Source: Crocinitomix sp. (lineage in GTDB: Bacteria; Bacteroidota; Bacteroidia; Flavobacteriales_D; Crocinitomicaceae). From it: a stretch of DNA of 64,000 bases. The position numbers and the translations under genes were made by a program. Positions 49,658-57,157 of this stretch are shown piece by piece. The DNA is taken from contig WTCE01000019.1 of the NCBI GenBank assembly GCA_013138735.1, positions 1 through 64,000 of the forward strand, given 5' to 3'. Within the stretch, counting starts at the first letter, position 1, and every line of letters begins with the position of its first letter. The notes beneath the pieces are model-generated. The model was not told the DNA's origin, did not search any database, and saw only the letters and a list, made by a program, of their open reading frames with translations.

Positions 49658-52600
49658 ATGCGCCTCCTTTTAATCATAGCTCTTGTTCTTGTATCCATTG
49701 GTAACTCCTTTGGGCAGAATGATCTTTTCCCTGTTGCAAAAAACGGGAAATGGGGTCTCGTTGAAAATACAGGAAAGTTTATTCTAAAATATCAATATGA
49801 TTATATCGAGTATCACCAAGCGTCCAATCAATTTGTTTATGAATTCAAAGGTAAAAGAGGATTAATTGGCGGAAATGGTCAGGTTAATTCTAAACCCATT
49901 TATGATGACATTCAATTGCTTGACAGCAGCTGGTCTACCTATAAAAAAAATGATAAATGGAATTTGGCGTTTCAAAGCAAGGTGCTCTTCGAATTTGAAT
50001 ATGATTCGATTGTTCCGGTTACTCCCGAAATCTTCATGTTATACAAGGATCAATTAGGCACATTCTACCATTGCGGATCAAAAACAAAATCTGTAAATGA
50101 ACACACTCTTGGTAGTTTTTTCAAAGACGGAATCATTGTAGGTCATTTTACTGATAACAAATACGCCCTATATTCTACAAATGATTTAAGTTTACTTTCG
50201 GCTAATGTTGACACTTTTTATACTAAGGTTTTTAATTATGCAGTAGCTGTAATTGACGGTCAATTGCAACTAATCAACATGCAGCAACAAAAGTTGGTTG
50301 GTGAACCAATGACAGACATTGATTATCAATTTGGTAATTTATTTATGTGTCATATAGGTTATGAACCGCGTTTGTTTAACGGCAAAAAGGACGAGTACTA
50401 CCAGGTTCCTGAACTCGATTTCATTCTAGATTATAATTACCCTACGTTAACTTATGTCAAAGCAGGAAAACAAGGCTTGTGGGATTTAGAACGCAGCCGA
50501 AACATTCTATTGCCGAAATATGAAGTTGCCGAAATCTTTGATCGTGAAATAATGGCAGGTGACTTTGGACGTTTTGGAATTTTCGATTTATCAGGCAACG
50601 CTATATTACCCATGGAATTCCAATCAATTGATGTGCATGACAATGTTTACGTCGTTCAGCAATCAGGTCAATATGGAGTCTACTCTAAGCGAGGTAAAGA
50701 AATAGTACCCGTTGTTTATGACAAAATCAAAGTCTTTGATAACAATATCAAATGCTATTCAAAAAAGGCCATTACAATAATCAAATTAGGGACAGATGGT
50801 AGTGTAAAGAGCAAAAAAACCTATACTGATTATATGAGTATTAGTATTGAAAAAGAACGGGTGCCACGCCGAAGATCTACCAACCTAAATTTTGGTGGAA
50901 ATGCACGCGATCAACCCAAATTTGATAACACTGCCTATGGCTGGTATCGACCTATATTAAAACGCAAAAAAAATGATTCCTTGATTGAAACTAGAGGCCG
51001 TTGGGGTTTAAAAGATACTGCCGATTCGGTTGTGATTCGACCTCAGTTTATGGAAATTATTATTGACAACAAACAGAATCTGACCAAAGCTTACCTCAGC
51101 AAAAGATCAACCATCAATCAATCGGCCGAATCACAATTAATCAAGAAAGGCTGGGCAATAAAATTGTCTAACTCGAGTCATGGCATTTTTCATCCCACAT
51201 TCAATTTGGTTGATAATGAAACGCGAAAATTTTTAACAAAACGAACGTTTCTATCTGTTAATTTGGATGATTTTGAAGTGGGCTATTATGCACGCTCCTT
51301 TTATAATGGACTCTTTTTGCTTGATCCACTTGGTGATGCGCATTGGGAAAACTTAAAATTCTATGGCGATTATAGCGATAGTATTCTCCGGATTTGTACT
51401 GAAGGCGAGACCGTTTTATCTCCTTCTAAAACCAAATTTACAGCCACTACTACACGTAATTTTTTGCACACGGCTGGTGCGGTAAAGTTTAAACTCAGTA
51501 AGCTTGAAAAATACATTGAATTTGAAGAAGCCACCTGGTTCTATCTTGATAAAAACGGGAATCAACTCAACGAAAAACCATTTCAATTTGCCGAAGAATT
51601 CAAGCATGGCTTAGCTATTGTTGCGATCAATGATAAGTGGGGTGTTGTTGATACTGCCATGAATATAATTGTGCCCATTGAACATGAAAAAGTGAAACGT
51701 GTGTTTATTGATGGTGCTTCGTATTTTGAAGTCAGCAAACGGGTAAAAGAAAATTATTTATATCAAAAATCAACCGGGAAACTTTCACCCACAGAAATTG
51801 GAACCTTAAAACATTACCATAAAGGAACTTGGTTTGCACAAAAAAAAGGTTCCTCAGCCTGGGCATTAATAGACACGAACTTACAGAACATTACGCCTTA
51901 TGAATTTGACTATGTCTATCCTTTTAAGGATGGTTATGCGACGATTATCATAAGAGGTAAAAAAAGCATCATTGATCCAAATGGCAATTCAGTTTTACCT
52001 TTTTATAAATCAAAACGAATCGAGCCTCTCGGTTATTATCGGTACGCCATTGTTACTTCAAAAGGTATGACAGTGGTTGACCTTGGTGCTGACACCTTAC
52101 TTAAAGCCATAAATTGCAAGCGTGTAATTGAATCAACAGCAGATTATTTGGTATATGAAGAACGTGGAAGACGTATCAATTTTTTAAATTTTAAAAATGA
52201 TTTTCATACGCCGAAGAATAGTACCATCCTCTCCTACTCCTTAAAGGACGAAATATTTTTAGTTCAAAAAAACGGTAAAAAGCGACTGTTTTCTATTGCT
52301 ACGGGAGAATACATCAGCAAACCATTGGAAGGAATTACGGAAGTTGGCGAAGATGCCATGATATATAGAGGCAAAAATGGTTTACTCGGCTTTCAAAGTT
52401 TCCAAGGGGATACACTTTGTCAACCGCAGTTTAAAAAATTGGCTCCACTTAAAAACGGCTGGGCTTTTTCAAAAACAAAACGCAAAAAAGGAATTGTAAA
52501 TGCAAATGGTAATTATCTTTTTGATGATCCTGTATATCGTGTGGGTGAATTGGATGAAAATTCTACTTTCATAATGCACACTGGAATTGGTGTGATTAAT

Positions 52601-53050
52601 CCAGCAGGCAAAGTAATTATTCCACCAGAATACCAAAAAATAGAATTGTACAATACATCATTTTACAAAGCCATTAAGAATAATCGAACCTGTGATGTAT
52701 ATACAAGAGCGGGTAAAAAACTGAACGATAAATCATATCAGGACATTAAAACTATTAGTACTAGCGCCCTAATTGTAAAGCATAAAGGATTTGATTATCT
52801 CTACAACGGTGTCTTGAATAAATCACTGTCATTCCAAAACATTCGACCCGTTTCAAGCGACCTTTATTTGCTGGATGAAAATAGCCATGTGGGCATGTAT
52901 AATGCTACAGGTGAGATCATAGTTCCTCTGCGTTATCATAAAATTGAAGTGGTTCGCGACCATTTGCAAGTGAGCTTTTTTAATTCCTTTGGCTATTTTG
53001 ACTATGACGGGAAGGATTTAGCGGATCCTCATTTTAAATCGGAGATTTAA
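49658..53050 (+). CDS. Large secreted WG-repeat protein
   Basis: A 1130-residue exported protein starting with a signal peptide (LLLIIALVLVSIGNSFGQ). It is built from WG-type repeats of about 50 residues along its whole length, for example KNGKWGLVENTGKFIL, KGKRGLIGGNGQV, KQGLWDLERSRNIL, RGRWGLKDTADSVVI, NDKWGVVDTAMNIIV and KNGLLGFQSFQGD. WG repeats are usually found in surface-exposed or envelope proteins and may mediate binding. It lies 9 bp downstream of the lipoprotein gene. Confidence 0.9.
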   Translation: MRLLLIIALVLVSIGNSFGQNDLFPVAKNGKWGLVENTGKFILKYQYDYIEYHQASNQFVYEFKGKRGLIGGNGQVNSKPIYDDIQLLDSSWSTYKKNDKWNLAFQSKVLFEFEYDSIVPVTPEIFMLYKDQLGTFYHCGSKTKSVNEHTLGSFFKDGIIVGHFTDNKYALYSTNDLSLLSANVDTFYTKVFNYAVAVIDGQLQLINMQQQKLVGEPMTDIDYQFGNLFMCHIGYEPRLFNGKKDEYYQVPELDFILDYNYPTLTYVKAGKQGLWDLERSRNILLPKYEVAEIFDREIMAGDFGRFGIFDLSGNAILPMEFQSIDVHDNVYVVQQSGQYGVYSKRGKEIVPVVYDKIKVFDNNIKCYSKKAITIIKLGTDGSVKSKKTYTDYMSISIEKERVPRRRSTNLNFGGNARDQPKFDNTAYGWYRPILKRKKNDSLIETRGRWGLKDTADSVVIRPQFMEIIIDNKQNLTKAYLSKRSTINQSAESQLIKKGWAIKLSNSSHGIFHPTFNLVDNETRKFLTKRTFLSVNLDDFEVGYYARSFYNGLFLLDPLGDAHWENLKFYGDYSDSILRICTEGETVLSPSKTKFTATTTRNFLHTAGAVKFKLSKLEKYIEFEEATWFYLDKNGNQLNEKPFQFAEEFKHGLAIVAINDKWGVVDTAMNIIVPIEHEKVKRVFIDGASYFEVSKRVKENYLYQKSTGKLSPTEIGTLKHYHKGTWFAQKKGSSAWALIDTNLQNITPYEFDYVYPFKDGYATIIIRGKKSIIDPNGNSVLPFYKSKRIEPLGYYRYAIVTSKGMTVVDLGADTLLKAINCKRVIESTADYLVYEERGRRINFLNFKNDFHTPKNSTILSYSLKDEIFLVQKNGKKRLFSIATGEYISKPLEGITEVGEDAMIYRGKNGLLGFQSFQGDTLCQPQFKKLAPLKNGWAFSKTKRKKGIVNANGNYLFDDPVYRVGELDENSTFIMHTGIGVINPAGKVIIPPEYQKIELYNTSFYKAIKNNRTCDVYTRAGKKLNDKSYQDIKTISTSALIVKHKGFDYLYNGVLNKSLSFQNIRPVSSDLYLLDENSHVGMYNATGEIIVPLRYHKIEVVRDHLQVSFFNSFGYFDYDGKDLADPHFKSEI

Positions 53051-54020: not shown

Positions 54021-54028
54021 TTAAATTA
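54021..54028 (+). other. Target site duplication, left
   Basis: TTAAATTA, immediately outside the left terminal inverted repeat. The same 8 bases occur at 57150-57157 immediately outside the right one. Eight-base duplications are typical of the IS1595 family. Confidence 0.9.
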
Positions 54029-54056
54029 GGTAACTATATATAACTTTACACTAAAT
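54029..54056 (+). repeat. Left terminal inverted repeat
   Basis: 28 bp beginning GGTAACTATATATAACTTTA. It differs from the reverse complement of the right end at two positions only. Its inner part also pairs with a nearby inverted copy: TTACACTAAA at 54046-54055 and TTTAGTGTAA at 54065-54074. Confidence 0.9.
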
Positions 54057-54083
54057 AAATTAGGTTTAGTGTAATTAACTTCT

Positions 54084-54091
54084 TATATTTG
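54084..54091 (+). promoter_or_regulatory. -7 promoter element for the transposase gene
   Basis: TATATTTG matches TAnnTTTG and lies 21 nt before the ATG at 54113, just inside the left end and after the palindrome 54046-54074. It argues against the alternative TTG start at 54089. Confidence 0.6.
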
Positions 54092-54112
54092 ATTTATCAA
54101 AACGACAAAGCA

Positions 54113-55030
54113 ATGATAAATCAAGACTTCAAATCAATGTTCGACTTACTAAAAGCTTTTCCAAGCGATCAGGCTTGCATTGACCATTTAACTGAATTAC
54201 GTTGGGGTGGTTACGTAGTTTCCCCATTTGATGCTGAATCTAAAGTCTATGTATGTAAAGGTAACAAATACAAGTGTAAAAACACAGGTAAATATTTCAA
54301 CGTTAAAACGGCTACCTTATTCGATAATACTAAGATTGAATTGCAAAAATGGTTCTTAGCCATTTGGATTGTAACTGCTCACAAAAAAGGAATAAGTTCT
54401 TTACAATTATCTCGTGACATTGATGTTACACAAAAAACAGCATGGTTCATGCTTCAAAGAATCCGTAATTGCTTTGGTTTTGATAATGACAGCGAATTAG
54501 ACAATGAAGTTGAAGTAGATGAAACTTATGTTGGTGGTAAGAACAAGAACCGCCACGCCAATAAGAAAGTACCAAATTCACAAGGTAGAAGCACAAAAGA
54601 CAAGCAAGCGGTTATCGGAATGATTGAAAGATCGGGAAAATTGGTTGCTCGTAAAATCAAAAACGCTAGTGCAGAAACTTTGACGGCTGAAATAATTAAG
54701 TAAGTAAAAGAAACTGCAAACCTTTATACTGATGAATGGTTTGGATATAATACTGTAAAACGTATTTACACACATGAGTTTGTAAAGCATAATGCAGGTG
54801 AGTACGTTAATGGTAGAATCCACACAAACACAATCGAGGGCTTTTGGTCAATCTTAAAGCGTGGCATCATTGGAATATATCATTTCACATCTAAAAAGCA
54901 CTTACAGCTTTATATTGATGAATTTGTTTACCGTTACAACACGCGCGAATCAAATGAATCTTTCAGATTTAATCTACTATTAAAGAATACAGAATTTCGA
55001 TTAACCTATAAAGAATTGATAAATGAGTAA
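54113..55030 (+). pseudogene. IS1595/ISXO2-like transposase, interrupted by an in-frame TAA
   Basis: The frame reads 196 residues to a TAA at 54701-54703, then continues without shift for 108 more codons to the stop at 55028-55030, giving the family's normal length of about 305. Features: an N-terminal zinc-ribbon-like part (C22, C48, C55), the catalytic domain with EVDETYVGG (D136) before the stop, and LYTDEWFGY (D207) and TIEGFWSILKRGIIGIYH after it. Since the second acidic residue and the rest of the catalytic core fall beyond the stop, the truncated protein should be inactive. One base change (for example AAA or CAA to TAA) explains it; sequencing error or suppression are alternatives. 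Confidence 0.9.
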
Positions 55031-55748
55031 AAAATCAAAATTTAACCAAAACTTAATGAAAGCAATAAGAGTAACAGAAAAAAGACCAAAAATGACCGTT
55101 AATAAATTAGGTGAATTTTTGATAGCAAACCCAAAAAGACAGCGACGAATTTTGGAATTATTAAAGTATCCAAAAGAAAGCACTTATAGCGCTACTGCCC
55201 ATTCAGAGGCTCGGGAAGCAATTAAAAAGTATTTTATAAATGAATTTGATGATGACATTATTTTAGATTGTATTGAATTTCTTAAACAAAAAACAGGAGG
55301 ATCAGAGCATTCAATTAAGATGGATCAATCCTCTATTGATTTACTAGAGGTGGTTCTAGAATCGGATAGTGTTGAGTTTGAGTCTTACAATTACGAGAAA
55401 TACGAAGGTGACAATCCTAAACTTGACATAGCTGGTGTGACAGTTAGTGTTTACCCTGATCTAATTGCTAAATCTTCCAGTAGAGGTAAGGAGTATATTG
55501 GGGCATTGAAAATTCACTTGGGAAAAACAGCTAAGTTAGGATTGGAAGGGGGCAAGTATGCAGCTGCAATTTTGAATCATTTTGTATCCCACCATGTTGA
55601 ATCAGAACGAATAGCGCGCCCTGACCATAGCGTTTCTTACGACGTCTATCCTGATAGTTTCATAGAATGCCCTACCAGCGTTAAGCGTAGATGGGACGAT
55701 ATTGAAGCTGGGTGTCAAAACATTGTTGCTATATGGGACTCTATATAA
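55023..55748 (+). CDS. Transposon passenger protein of unknown function
   Basis: A 241-residue soluble protein beginning with an ATG 8 bp before the transposase stop codon, so probably translated with it. The N-terminal 100 residues are helical and basic at the start (KSKFNQNLMKAIRVTEK, NPKRQRRILELLKYP). The C-terminal half has VTVSVYPDLIAKSSSRGKEY then IGALKIHLGKTAKLG, GGKYAAAILNHFV, and KRRWDDIEAGCQNIVAIW. D146 and K163 in the PDL...ALK arrangement are faintly like a PD-(D/E)xK nuclease core, but the expected second acidic residue is an alanine, so this is only a guess. Related uncharacterised proteins seem to exist. The last 147 bp overlap the HNH gene on the other strand. Confidence 0.78.
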   Translation: MSKKSKFNQNLMKAIRVTEKRPKMTVNKLGEFLIANPKRQRRILELLKYPKESTYSATAHSEAREAIKKYFINEFDDDIILDCIEFLKQKTGGSEHSIKMDQSSIDLLEVVLESDSVEFESYNYEKYEGDNPKLDIAGVTVSVYPDLIAKSSSRGKEYIGALKIHLGKTAKLGLEGGKYAAAILNHFVSHHVESERIARPDHSVSYDVYPDSFIECPTSVKRRWDDIEAGCQNIVAIWDSI

Positions 55749-56066
55749 TTCCCGTGTCTTAACTTTATGACAATCATTGCAAAGTGTCTGTAAATTTTCT
55801 AAAGTACATCCACCACCACCTTGCGAGACAGGAACAATGTGGTCTGCTTGCCAATCTTCATCATACACCCCACAATGACTACAATAACCTTGATCCGTTT
55901 GGAATAGATTTTCTCGAATTACACCATTGTCACCTTTTATAATGTAAAAGTGATTAAGGGAGGTATGCATACATTCTTTACTGAACCATTTTCGTTTTCG
56001 TCCTGTTAAATTCCTTCCGCATCCACAAGCACATAAGCCTTTAATTGAAGGGAACAAATGGAACAT
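55602..56066 (-). CDS. HNH endonuclease (transposon passenger)
   Basis: A 154-residue HNH nuclease from the chosen start. It has an N-terminal zinc-like cluster (CACGCG, then CMH) and the HNH core: CSHCG, WQADHIVPVSQGGGG with the catalytic histidine, TLENLQTLCNDCHKVKT with the asparagine, second cysteine pair and final histidine. All catalytic and zinc positions are present. I start at the ATG at 56066, which has AAAGGA about 7 nt upstream; a GTG at 56105 would add 13 residues but begins just 4 nt after a TAAATTTG promoter box (56117-56110). The 3' end overlaps the 241-residue gene by 147 bp tail to tail. Confidence 0.85.
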   Translation of the reverse strand: MFHLFPSIKGLCACGCGRNLTGRKRKWFSKECMHTSLNHFYIIKGDNGVIRENLFQTDQGYCSHCGVYDEDWQADHIVPVSQGGGGCTLENLQTLCNDCHKVKTRELYRVPYSNNVLTPSFNIVPSTLNAGRAFYETIRIDVVRNAMVRARYSF

Positions 56067-56109
56067 TGCCAATCCTTTTTGATATCTAAGATTATTATTG
56101 ATCACCGTT

Positions 56110-56117
56110 CAAATTTA
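56110..56117 (-). promoter_or_regulatory. -7 promoter element for the HNH gene
   Basis: Minus-strand TAAATTTG, an exact TAnnTTTG match, 43 nt before the ATG at 56066. It supports the shorter start for the HNH gene and suggests a transcript separate from the XRE gene. Confidence 0.5.
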
Positions 56118-56216
56118 GTAAAAAATACTTATTACACATAATCATTCTTGAATGATACGAACAATAAACTGTTAGTTTTAGTGCTTTTGTACTAGGAAGA
56201 AAATATAAAAAGTCAG

Positions 56217-56426
56217 TTAGAGCAGGTCTTTAAGATCAATCTCAAGTCCTTCACAAATTTCAAGCAGAAAATAATAACTTGGATTCACTTTACCGTTTTC
56301 GAGTTTATTAATTGACGGATGGTCTTTACCGATCTTATGAGCCAATTCGGTTTGGGTCAAATCTTTTAATAGTCTAATTTCTTTGACTGCATCACCTAAT
56401 TTTATTAACTCTACTTTCTTGTTCAT
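56217..56426 (-). CDS. XRE-family helix-turn-helix regulator (transposon passenger)
   Basis: A 69-residue single-domain HTH_3 protein: IRLLKDLTQTELAHKIGKDHPSINKLENGKVNPSYYFLLEICEGL in pieces, with TQTELAHKIG and SINKLENGK as the two recognition helices. I start at MNKKVELIK (56426), since the in-frame start at 56468 would place coding sequence over a palindromic operator at 56433-56479. It is divergent from the 63-residue gene and probably represses both its own and that promoter. Confidence 0.82.
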   Translation of the reverse strand: MNKKVELIKLGDAVKEIRLLKDLTQTELAHKIGKDHPSINKLENGKVNPSYYFLLEICEGLEIDLKDLL

Positions 56427-56432
56427 GAAACC

Positions 56433-56479
56433 AATGTATCGTATCAAATACAAATAGTCTGTATCCAATACGATACATT
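56433..56479. promoter_or_regulatory. Palindromic operator of the XRE regulator
   Basis: A perfect 12-bp inverted repeat, AATGTATCGTAT (56433-56444) and ATACGATACATT (56468-56479), 23 nt apart. Within it are two GTAT-N3-ATAC half-sites, GTATCAAATAC (56441-56451) and GTATCCAATAC (56461-56471), exactly 20 bp or two helical turns apart. It begins 6 bp upstream of the regulator start and precedes the divergent small gene. Confidence 0.8.
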
Positions 56480-56522
56480 AGGATAATTTTCATTAGTTTA
56501 GTCGTAATCAATTAACCCAATT

Positions 56523-56714
56523 ATGAGCGAAAAGACTAACAAACAGAAGCAAGTCGAGTATATCAGTAATTTAATGAAAGAGAACCACGAATTTAGACAG
56601 GTTTGCTTTGAAGTTTTGAATTGCTTGGAAAATCTCGACGCTCCGCTAAAAATCGTACATTGTAAAAGCGAATTGAATAGGGTTTTATTTAGTCCAAATG
56701 ATTTTTTGCACTAA
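56523..56714 (+). CDS. Small transposon passenger protein
   Basis: A 63-residue protein, mostly helical and charged (KTNKQKQVEYISNLMKEN), with two cysteines and a hydrophobic helix centre. No family recognised. It is divergent from the XRE gene; the palindromic operator overlaps the place where its -33 element would lie, with TAATTTTC (56484-56491) as a 7 of 8 match to the -7 box. The regulated position makes it a real-gene candidate despite its size. Confidence 0.6.
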   Translation: MSEKTNKQKQVEYISNLMKENHEFRQVCFEVLNCLENLDAPLKIVHCKSELNRVLFSPNDFLH

Positions 56715-56744
56715 TTGGTGTAAAGCTTTAAATATTTAATAACT

Positions 56745-57113
56745 ATGCGAAATTTATTATTAACAATCTCTTTATTGAGCATGAATTTTTCTTATGGACA
56801 AGATCATGTTAAGACAATTGTAGTTGGATCTAATGATTCATCCGCTACACAAACAATTAAGATGAATTCAGATGAATATTTGGTGATTACAAAAATGGAT
56901 AGTAGTACCAATGTTTCATTCCGTCAAATAGAACCATTAGAAGATAATATTTTGGTTTTATTAGGTGGATTTGGTGACAACCAAGTGAGCATGAACGCTA
57001 ACAATAATATCGCTATGTTAGTTAACTTACCGATTTTTTTAACTAGCAGAAGATATATTCTTTTAATTGATACACCAATTGGAAAGTTTGTAGAGATAGA
57101 TATTCTTAAATAA
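56745..57113 (+). CDS. Small secreted protein (transposon passenger)
   Basis: A 122-residue protein with a signal peptide (NLLLTISLLSMNFSYGQ). The mature part is beta-rich (TIVVGSNDSSATQTIKMNSD, EYLVITKMDSS, RYILLIDTPIGKFVEIDIL) with no cysteines. No family recognised. It follows the 63-residue gene by 30 bp, and its stop codon is only 8 bp from the right inverted repeat, so it is fully inside the element. Confidence 0.68.
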   Translation: MRNLLLTISLLSMNFSYGQDHVKTIVVGSNDSSATQTIKMNSDEYLVITKMDSSTNVSFRQIEPLEDNILVLLGGFGDNQVSMNANNNIAMLVNLPIFLTSRRYILLIDTPIGKFVEIDILK

Positions 57114-57121
57114 GAATTTAA

Positions 57122-57149
57122 ATTTAGTGTAAAATTGTATATAGTTACC
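57122..57149 (-). repeat. Right terminal inverted repeat
   Basis: 28 bp ending GTTACC on the plus strand; its reverse complement begins GGTAACTATATACAATTTTA and matches the left end at 26 of 28 positions. Confidence 0.9.
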
Positions 57150-57157
57150 TTAAATTA
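57150..57157 (+). other. Target site duplication, right
   Basis: TTAAATTA, identical to the 8 bases at 54021-54028 on the other side of the element. Confidence 0.9.

Follow-up and report, generated by a model that had tools for sequence, protein, structure and literature searches.

A passenger-carrying IS1595-family transposon of Crocinitomix sp. and a lineage of relatives with exchangeable partner proteins and a short conserved tail

The stretch of Crocinitomix sp. DNA analysed here (contig WTCE01000019.1 of assembly GCA_013138735.1, positions 1 to 64,000; its full 64,000 nucleotides are called the window) contains an IS1595-family element of 3,121 bp between the two copies of its target-site duplication (TSD), which span positions 54021–57157. 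With moderate confidence, we read this element as a passenger transposon (tIS) from a lineage where each of the 68 bounded relatives has additional genes, and where the gene directly behind the transposase occupies a fixed slot, its body being exchangeable and a short tail being kept; in the window, this slot would hold a compressed variant, a 241-amino-acid (aa) protein termed p241. Across the relatives, we observed a shared layout, the tail and its conservation at the protein level, the absence of the tail from the examined members of the same protein families encoded elsewhere, and the swapping of partner bodies on the transposase tree.

Relatives were sought by scanning genome contigs with the first piece of the window transposase as query, which returned at least 579 relatives in 592 stretches, the best 80 of which were kept. 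A matrix of the terminal inverted repeats, derived from 48 ends, bounded 68 of these 80 loci, and counts out of 68 refer to this set, the window being excluded unless stated; seven of the 12 loci left unbounded still have a tail of at least 15 bits. A perfect 8-bp TSD flanks 51 of the 68 elements and one more has a TSD with a single mismatch, the element lengths being 2,014–5,778 bp for the 51 with perfect TSDs and 1,519–5,778 bp for all 68. None is a bare insertion sequence (IS) of ~1 kb, as every relative contains, in addition to the transposase, one or more open reading frames (ORFs) of at least 45 aa. Counting the window, a further ORF of at least 60 aa besides the transposase and the tail gene is present in 60 of 69 elements, and the 154 further ORFs of at least 65 aa form 113 clusters. 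By record title, 48 elements come from Bacteroidota, 13 from Bacillota and a few from other taxa, many of the records being metagenome-assembled genomes whose labels can err.

The partner slot is the place of the next plus-strand ORF after the transposase. Among the 64 relatives with an ORF there, the slot ORF overlaps the transposase gene by exactly 8 nt in 28 and by 1–23 nt in 19 more. Near the C-terminus of most partners lies a tail of ~16 residues with the consensus LSDFNKKLKKALNYNP, a short, amphipathic segment with the core F-N/D-x-x-L-x-x-A/G-L followed by Y-N-P. Scanning with a matrix of 35 different 16-mers, taken from 39 of the 64 partners, gave a tail score of at least 9 bits for 57 of the 68 relatives and for the window element, while 231,039 bases of reversed sequence gave no tail and two forward matches (11.2 and 9.6 bits) lay in other frames. 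In all clustered tail proteins except that of the window, the tail starts 16–43 residues from the C-terminus, and only one tail ends exactly there. In an alignment of 22 partners of the P63C class (see below), five of the eight nearly invariant columns fall in the tail. The identity at codon positions 1, 2 and 3 across 56 tails (those of the window and of loci L117 and L083 excluded) was 0.61, 0.72 and 0.40, respectively; the third positions thus being free, the tail is kept as protein, and conservation at the DNA level was rejected. A P63C partner modelled with AlphaFold (pLDDT 76) has its tail as a helix (residues 306–315) of modest confidence behind a disordered linker.

The proteins ahead of this tail are of several kinds. 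Clustering took 59 tail proteins from the 69 elements with the window included, as compared to 58 of 69 by matrix scan, since L117 (6.2 bits) and L083 (ORF below 45 aa) were added by hand. Once the tails were removed, their bodies fell into nine clusters unlinked by blastp at 1e-4: 31 P63C-like proteins, 15 RhuM-like proteins, two KilA-N-like clusters of five and two, two proteins beside IrrE-like proteins, and four singles, among them that of L083, which is too short to compare. Pfam confirmed four of the 31 P63C members (L043, L044, L047, L055; the short L054, L061 and L079 gave no match), four of the 15 RhuM members (L042, L056, L077, L120), and four of five (L071, L080, L100, L119) and one of two (L049; L052 had no match) in the KilA-N clusters, the remaining members of these classes being linked by blastp only.

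Individual slots vary further. The slot peptide of L083 comprises 41 aa and is little more than a tail. L075 has a 265-aa slot protein that looks proteasome-like by eye, with no Pfam match, followed by a 66-aa protein bearing the tail. At L088 and L117, an untailed IrrE-like protein occupies the slot (matched weakly by Pfam in L117), and it is the small gene after it that bears the tail, an arrangement suggesting a tag that goes with the whole operon and not with a single gene. In many P63C partners, the tail is preceded by a Q-L-x-L-x-F-like stretch; the P63C protein of the Javan441 satellite phage (L153) ends in QLSLFEEFE, a type of stretch that we take to resemble a sliding-clamp binding motif.

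Away from this transposase, none of 45 P63C, RhuM and KilA-N relatives carries the tail. For RhuM, it was absent from all 30 proteins (best score, 1.6 bits; one ORF runs off its contig, leaving 29 whole C-termini), these being the best-scoring 30 from the 70 genomes, among 247 searched, that had matches, and the fetched stretches containing no transposase of this kind. It was likewise absent from nine P63C proteins (eight from 61 phage and plasmid records, for which the absence of the transposase was read from the annotation of the fetched stretch, plus L152) and from six KilA-N proteins (of 16 phage records). A P63C search in the 247 genomes gave a single match, with neither tail nor transposase. 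The Javan441 P63C protein is 69% identical to the partner of L043, with a different C-terminal end. When the exact tail DNA pattern was searched over viral contigs (2.9 million by the description of the collection), it occurred once, where the gene of a KilA-N protein (PF04383, 6.9e-23) ends directly behind an IS1595 transposase that is 33% identical to that of the window in the first piece. A second pattern gave one match in the viral contigs, a 42-aa frame in a stretch lacking a transposase, which we read as chance, and a third pattern gave no match there. Among 29 loci from another transposase scan, L014 and L015 reach 13 bits and L020 reaches 12.1; several others of the 29 have small slot proteins that end, by eye, in looser F-D-x-x-L/F motifs.

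The slot gene has been swapped repeatedly while the short tail was kept. On a transposase tree, built by a quick method with many weak forks and comprising 79 of 81 rows (L099 and L112 were dropped), the 15 RhuM rows need 15 changes, no better than shuffled labels (mean 13.8), whereas presence or absence of the tail needs four (shuffled mean 9.5; 0 of 500 as low). Transposases ~90% identical are followed by different bodies: P63C in L114 and KilA-N in L119, an IrrE partner in L117 and RhuM in L120, P63C in L067 and RhuM in L078. The tails of these pairs look alike.

In the window, the partner slot is filled by p241 (55023–55748, + strand), which shares the layout of its relatives: it starts at the usual place, its start codon lying inside the last 8 nt of the transposase gene (ATGAGTAA, 55023–55030), so that it overlaps the transposase stop by 8 nt. 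Its first residues are MSKKSKFNQNLMKAIRV, and residues 4–19 (KSKFNQNLMKAIRVTE; 55032–55079, + strand) score 9.6 bits against the tail matrix. Compared with the consensus, this segment keeps S, F, N, L and A, has Ile for Leu and has lost the Y-N-P part. Shuffling the first 40 residues reached this score in two of 20000 cases, and shuffling the whole protein in 11 of 20000. The three genome relatives of p241 begin near the N-K-L-G/S block that comes next in p241, or near its counterpart, without the N-terminal extension. From sequence comparison, we consider it likely that p241 is a rare protein to whose front a tail has been fused. Matches to p241, its own genome counted, were found in two of 200 genomes of the family, two of 299 of the order and three of 296 of the phylum (the last by profile), with no relative among viral contigs and phages or in the general genome-contig scan. 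The three genome relatives are 23–27% identical and a partial copy on a Planctomyces plasmid is 32% identical; the Planctomyces piece has, in turn, a weak relative on a Rhizobium plasmid. No Pfam, NCBIfam, PADLOC or PHROG family matched p241, and a PDB sequence search gave no convincing relative (best E, 0.057 for p241 and 0.9 for a P63C partner).

The ends of the window element match those of its relatives. Copies of TTAAATTA flank it on the left (54021–54028) and the right (57150–57157), an 8-bp TSD being a trait of the IS1595 family. Inside them lie 28-bp terminal inverted repeats, the left one (GGTAACTATATATAACTTTACACTAAAT; 54029–54056, + strand) and the right one (57122–57149, − strand) matching at 26 of 28 positions; a repeat search gives 29 nt at 93%, one base longer. 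The repeat consensus is common to the window element and its relatives, and since the same type of end and TSDs recur in related elements, the window ends are not chance. An earlier note on this DNA, made from the sequence alone, had proposed a complete IS1595-family transposon with passengers, bounded by these repeats and this duplication. Its coordinates were right, and domain matches, ends and bounded relatives agree with its family assignment; the element is complete as DNA, with both ends and the TSD, but its transposase is interrupted by a stop codon. A whole-element DNA search of its own genome found a single copy, and the five further IS1595-domain matches there all score lower than the window transposase. 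In a look for an empty site, two genomes (G060 and G097) were found to keep the right-flank genes, the fetched stretch being without the left-flank gene.

The interruption is an in-frame TAA (54701–54703) that splits the DDE domain of the transposase into halves matching the IS1595 model separately: a first piece of 196 aa (54113–54703, + strand; NF033547, 1.3e-31; PF12762, 4.3e-14) and the frame after the stop, with the second half of the domain (54704–55030, + strand; PF12762, 2.8e-23; NF033547, 8e-23). Both pieces pass the curated cut-offs for the DDE_Tnp_IS1595/transpos_IS1595 domain, and the IS1595-domain match obtained at this place in the search of the own genome also counts one TAA inside. 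The ISXO2-like transposase gene of the earlier note thus has the IS1595 DDE domain but is not intact, the TAA having been overlooked. An N-terminal zinc finger is ascribed to the IS1595 family, the IS1016 group excepted, in passages of PMC8101967; a Zn ribbon (PF12760) in the first piece reached E 0.0013 and 19.1 bits, below the cut-off of 25.4. Unlike the window element, 62 of the 68 bounded relatives have a transposase ORF of at least 280 aa. The window element lacks the single intact transposase gene of an active IS1595 copy, which bears on its activity and not on its descent; given the in-frame TAA, this copy is probably immobile on its own.

Five passenger genes (55023–57113) lie between the transposase and the right end inside one pair of inverted repeats, a tIS trait, and all five are present as ORFs, as had been described. 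Behind p241 follows an HNH endonuclease gene (55602–56066, − strand; PF01844, 3.4e-11) encoding 154 aa from its ATG, or 167 aa from an alternative GTG start at 56105. Its 3′ part is antisense to p241, the two genes overlapping tail to tail by 147 bp (55602–55748), as if two cassettes had been joined and the HNH gene had lost its own end. Next is a 69-aa XRE-family regulator (56217–56426, − strand; HTH_3, 8.2e-14). Both domain identities were thereby confirmed, and the palindrome noted beside the XRE gene was recovered between it and the divergent small genes (56433–56479; arms 56433–56452 and 56460–56479, 85% complementary; fold z −4.6), where it is a predicted operator. The remaining two genes encode proteins of 63 aa (56523–56714, + strand) and 122 aa (56745–57113, + strand), neither having a family in Pfam, NCBIfam, PADLOC or PHROG. 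One of the small proteins had been called secreted; the start of the 122-aa protein does look signal-peptide-like, as judged by eye only.

Little of this cargo recurs. Searched by blastp (E 1e-3) against the ORFs of the remaining 68 bounded elements, the p241, HNH, 63-aa and 122-aa proteins gave no match, and the XRE protein gave one generic match at 35% (L043). A search of the bounded elements and plasmids, not of whole genomes, found no relative of the 63-aa and 122-aa proteins in the plasmid collection. A conserved five-gene cargo found no support, the gene set not being recovered in the genomes, phages, plasmids and bounded elements searched. Blastp among the ORFs of the 68 bounded relatives showed no shared cargo order, and the suggestion that the cargo forms a self-contained defence or addiction module is not supported in the sense of a conserved unit, its order being found nowhere that was searched. 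The window cargo gave no PADLOC-specific family match for defence, only generic HNH and HTH matches, and an antitoxin-like helix-turn-helix similarity is below the NCBIfam cut-offs. The neighbours of the p241 genome relatives include a TIR_2 gene (L163), a DUF6527 and ThiF pair (L162) and the PADLOC candidate PDC-S26 (L009); PADLOC matched PDC-S26 strongly, TIR weakly, and DUF6527 and ThiF not at all, although ThiF/DUF6527 genes are members of defence-type operons and TIR proteins are likewise of defence type. Beside the Planctomyces plasmid copy lie hypothetical genes and a DUF4417 gene, none of defence type. Three of four readable p241 neighbourhoods hence point, weakly given that four are few, to defence-type genes.

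Several observations weigh against our reading of the element. At the level of the clade, the tail matrix was built from these same elements and is partly circular, no tail is scored in 11 of the 68 relatives (L117 among them, with the weak one noted above), and 16 of the 68 have two or more TSD mismatches, so that some ends may be misplaced. Swapping is not random: the body labels taken together need 27 changes where shuffled ones average 34.1 (none of 200 as low), and P63C shows clustering, at 17 changes (shuffled mean, 22.7; 3 of 500 as low). Across different-body pairs, with the window and transposase pairs more than 93% identical left out, tail and transposase are only weakly correlated (Spearman 0.15; matched or exceeded by 26 of 500 shuffles), and an interaction between the two is something that we infer. 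At the level of the window, the tail is weak and has neither the aromatic residue nor Asn-Pro, its 9.6 bits comparing with 13–49 bits for C-terminal slot tails scoring at least 9 bits; the 1,121 frames scanned in the flanks include two unrelated stretches that score 12.8 and 14.0 (a third, in L082, is a true tail); no other element was seen with the tail as an N-terminal segment of a larger protein; and the p241 structure model (pLDDT 38) was unusable, being too poor to read. The one p241 neighbourhood of four that lacks defence-type genes, and the non-random distribution of the bodies, slightly lower our confidence. The low score of the FNQNLMKAI stretch at the p241 start, surpassed by two unrelated flank frames, would also suit an ordinary passenger-carrying IS1595 element in which that stretch is a coincidence and p241, together with the HNH, XRE and small genes, is there as cargo by chance, as would the very diverse cargo of the relatives and the lack of a common cargo order. 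We nevertheless regard this as unlikely: the stretch stands in frame at the first residues of the slot, in an extension that the p241 genome relatives lack, few shuffles of the first 40 residues match its score, and the clade-wide tail holds irrespective of the window. That the tail is a degron or another protein-fate signal, or is retained because transposase and partner are translated in a coupled way, rather than a docking element, would be in line with its start 16–43 residues from the C-terminus in all clustered tail proteins but that of the window and with partner starts that often overlap the transposase stop. This seems unlikely, as conservation is at the protein level with third codon positions free, the tail is usually hundreds of codons from the coupled start, and a tail ends exactly at the C-terminus only once and is N-terminal in the window.

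The reading of the cargo as a self-contained anti-phage defence or addiction module, with the nuclease or p241 as effector, the XRE protein as antitoxin or regulator, and carriage by the transposon for its own retention, likewise appears doubtful. In its favour are the three p241 relatives adjoining TIR_2, ThiF with DUF6527, and PDC-S26 genes, as well as cargo elsewhere in the clade: restriction-modification genes in L079, in L070 and in relatives of L070 found by BLAST, a gene for type I specificity in L062, a nucleotidyltransferase (DUF6036) in L066, SocA/Panacea in L078 and, in L117, a weak match of IrrE type. Parts of PMC8585504 moreover describe BstA, which has a KilA-N-like domain, as a prophage defence protein. 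Conversely, no PADLOC model fits p241 or the 63-aa and 122-aa proteins, the HNH and HTH matches are generic, PADLOC supports TIR weakly and the DUF6527 and ThiF pair not at all, the fourth p241 relative has no defence-type neighbour, none of the searches made recovered the gene set elsewhere, and many cargo ORFs of the relatives look by eye like lipoproteins or membrane proteins.

Under our preferred reading of a slot with exchangeable bodies, the tail may be a helix for docking, linking a variable body with DNA-binding or effector activity to the transposase or the transpososome. It would dock the partner on the transposase, and the partner body would lend DNA binding or another activity and be exchanged under selection for novelty. 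In the window slot, a degenerate tail right at the start codon would be fused in frame to a rare protein whose family occurs mostly beside defence-type genes; the XRE repressor would probably bind the palindrome at its own start, controlling itself and the divergent 63-aa/122-aa pair; and with its stop codon, the copy would probably be a fixed cargo island, mobile only when a transposase is supplied in trans. More tentatively, and as a possibility rather than the probable case, a constant docking tail would let interchangeable proteins (P63C, RhuM, KilA-N and others) plug into a single transposase, and functions in control, targeting or defence would thereby be exchanged in the manner of cassettes, the window tail having moved to the N-terminus of a defence-type protein.

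Comparison with known systems places the element as follows. Tn7-like transposons combine a core transposase with swappable target selectors, and thus resemble the arrangement proposed here in having interchangeable partner proteins; they differ in that no TnsB- or TnsC-like gene is among the domain matches of the window element. The P63C (PF10546), RhuM (PF13310) and KilA-N (PF04383) proteins of phages, plasmids and chromosomes have the same domains as the partner bodies but, unlike the partners, no tail in any of the 45 cases above. IS1595-family tIS with passengers are already known: tISCpe8 and MTnSag1/tISSag10 are described as mobilizable elements in passages of PMC5704250, tISCpe8 being a lincomycin-resistance element by the title of a paper cited there. 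Compared by description only, they share with the window element an IS1595-family transposase, IS-type ends and passenger genes, and the passages in question mention no tail-tagged swappable partner; such a partner gene on IS1595 elements was not found in the open-access literature searched. BstA, again compared by description only, is alike in placing a KilA-N(-like) domain on a mobile element and differs in being, according to parts of PMC8585504, a prophage abortive-infection system with a DNA self-immunity element. If true, our reading would account for the phage-type P63C, RhuM and KilA-N proteins behind ISXO2-type transposases, give the functions of these proteins a testable partner, and add a transposon with a modular partner protein; the tail could then be used to track down such elements along with the cargo that they spread.

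Ten elements of the clade are from Streptococcus (L054, L057–L062, L065, L066 and L068). Behind a short partner with a tail, each of the ten has a 95-aa gene and one that is nucleotidyltransferase-like (in L066, Pfam identifies DUF6036); eight have an ORF BLAST-related to the N6-methylase/HSDR-type protein of L070, and three of those eight also have ORFs related to a type I specificity gene. In L050, a transposase gene that looks IS4-like by eye lies between the IS1595 transposase and a RhuM-class partner, a nested transposon. At four other IS1595 loci (L022, L026, L028 and L032), the transposase is followed by ORFs that by eye resemble DNA methyltransferases, some with an HNH-like end. To the left of the window element, positions 49658–53050 encode a 1,130-aa protein with a signal-like start and 'KWGLV'-like repeat units, which by eye are WG repeats.

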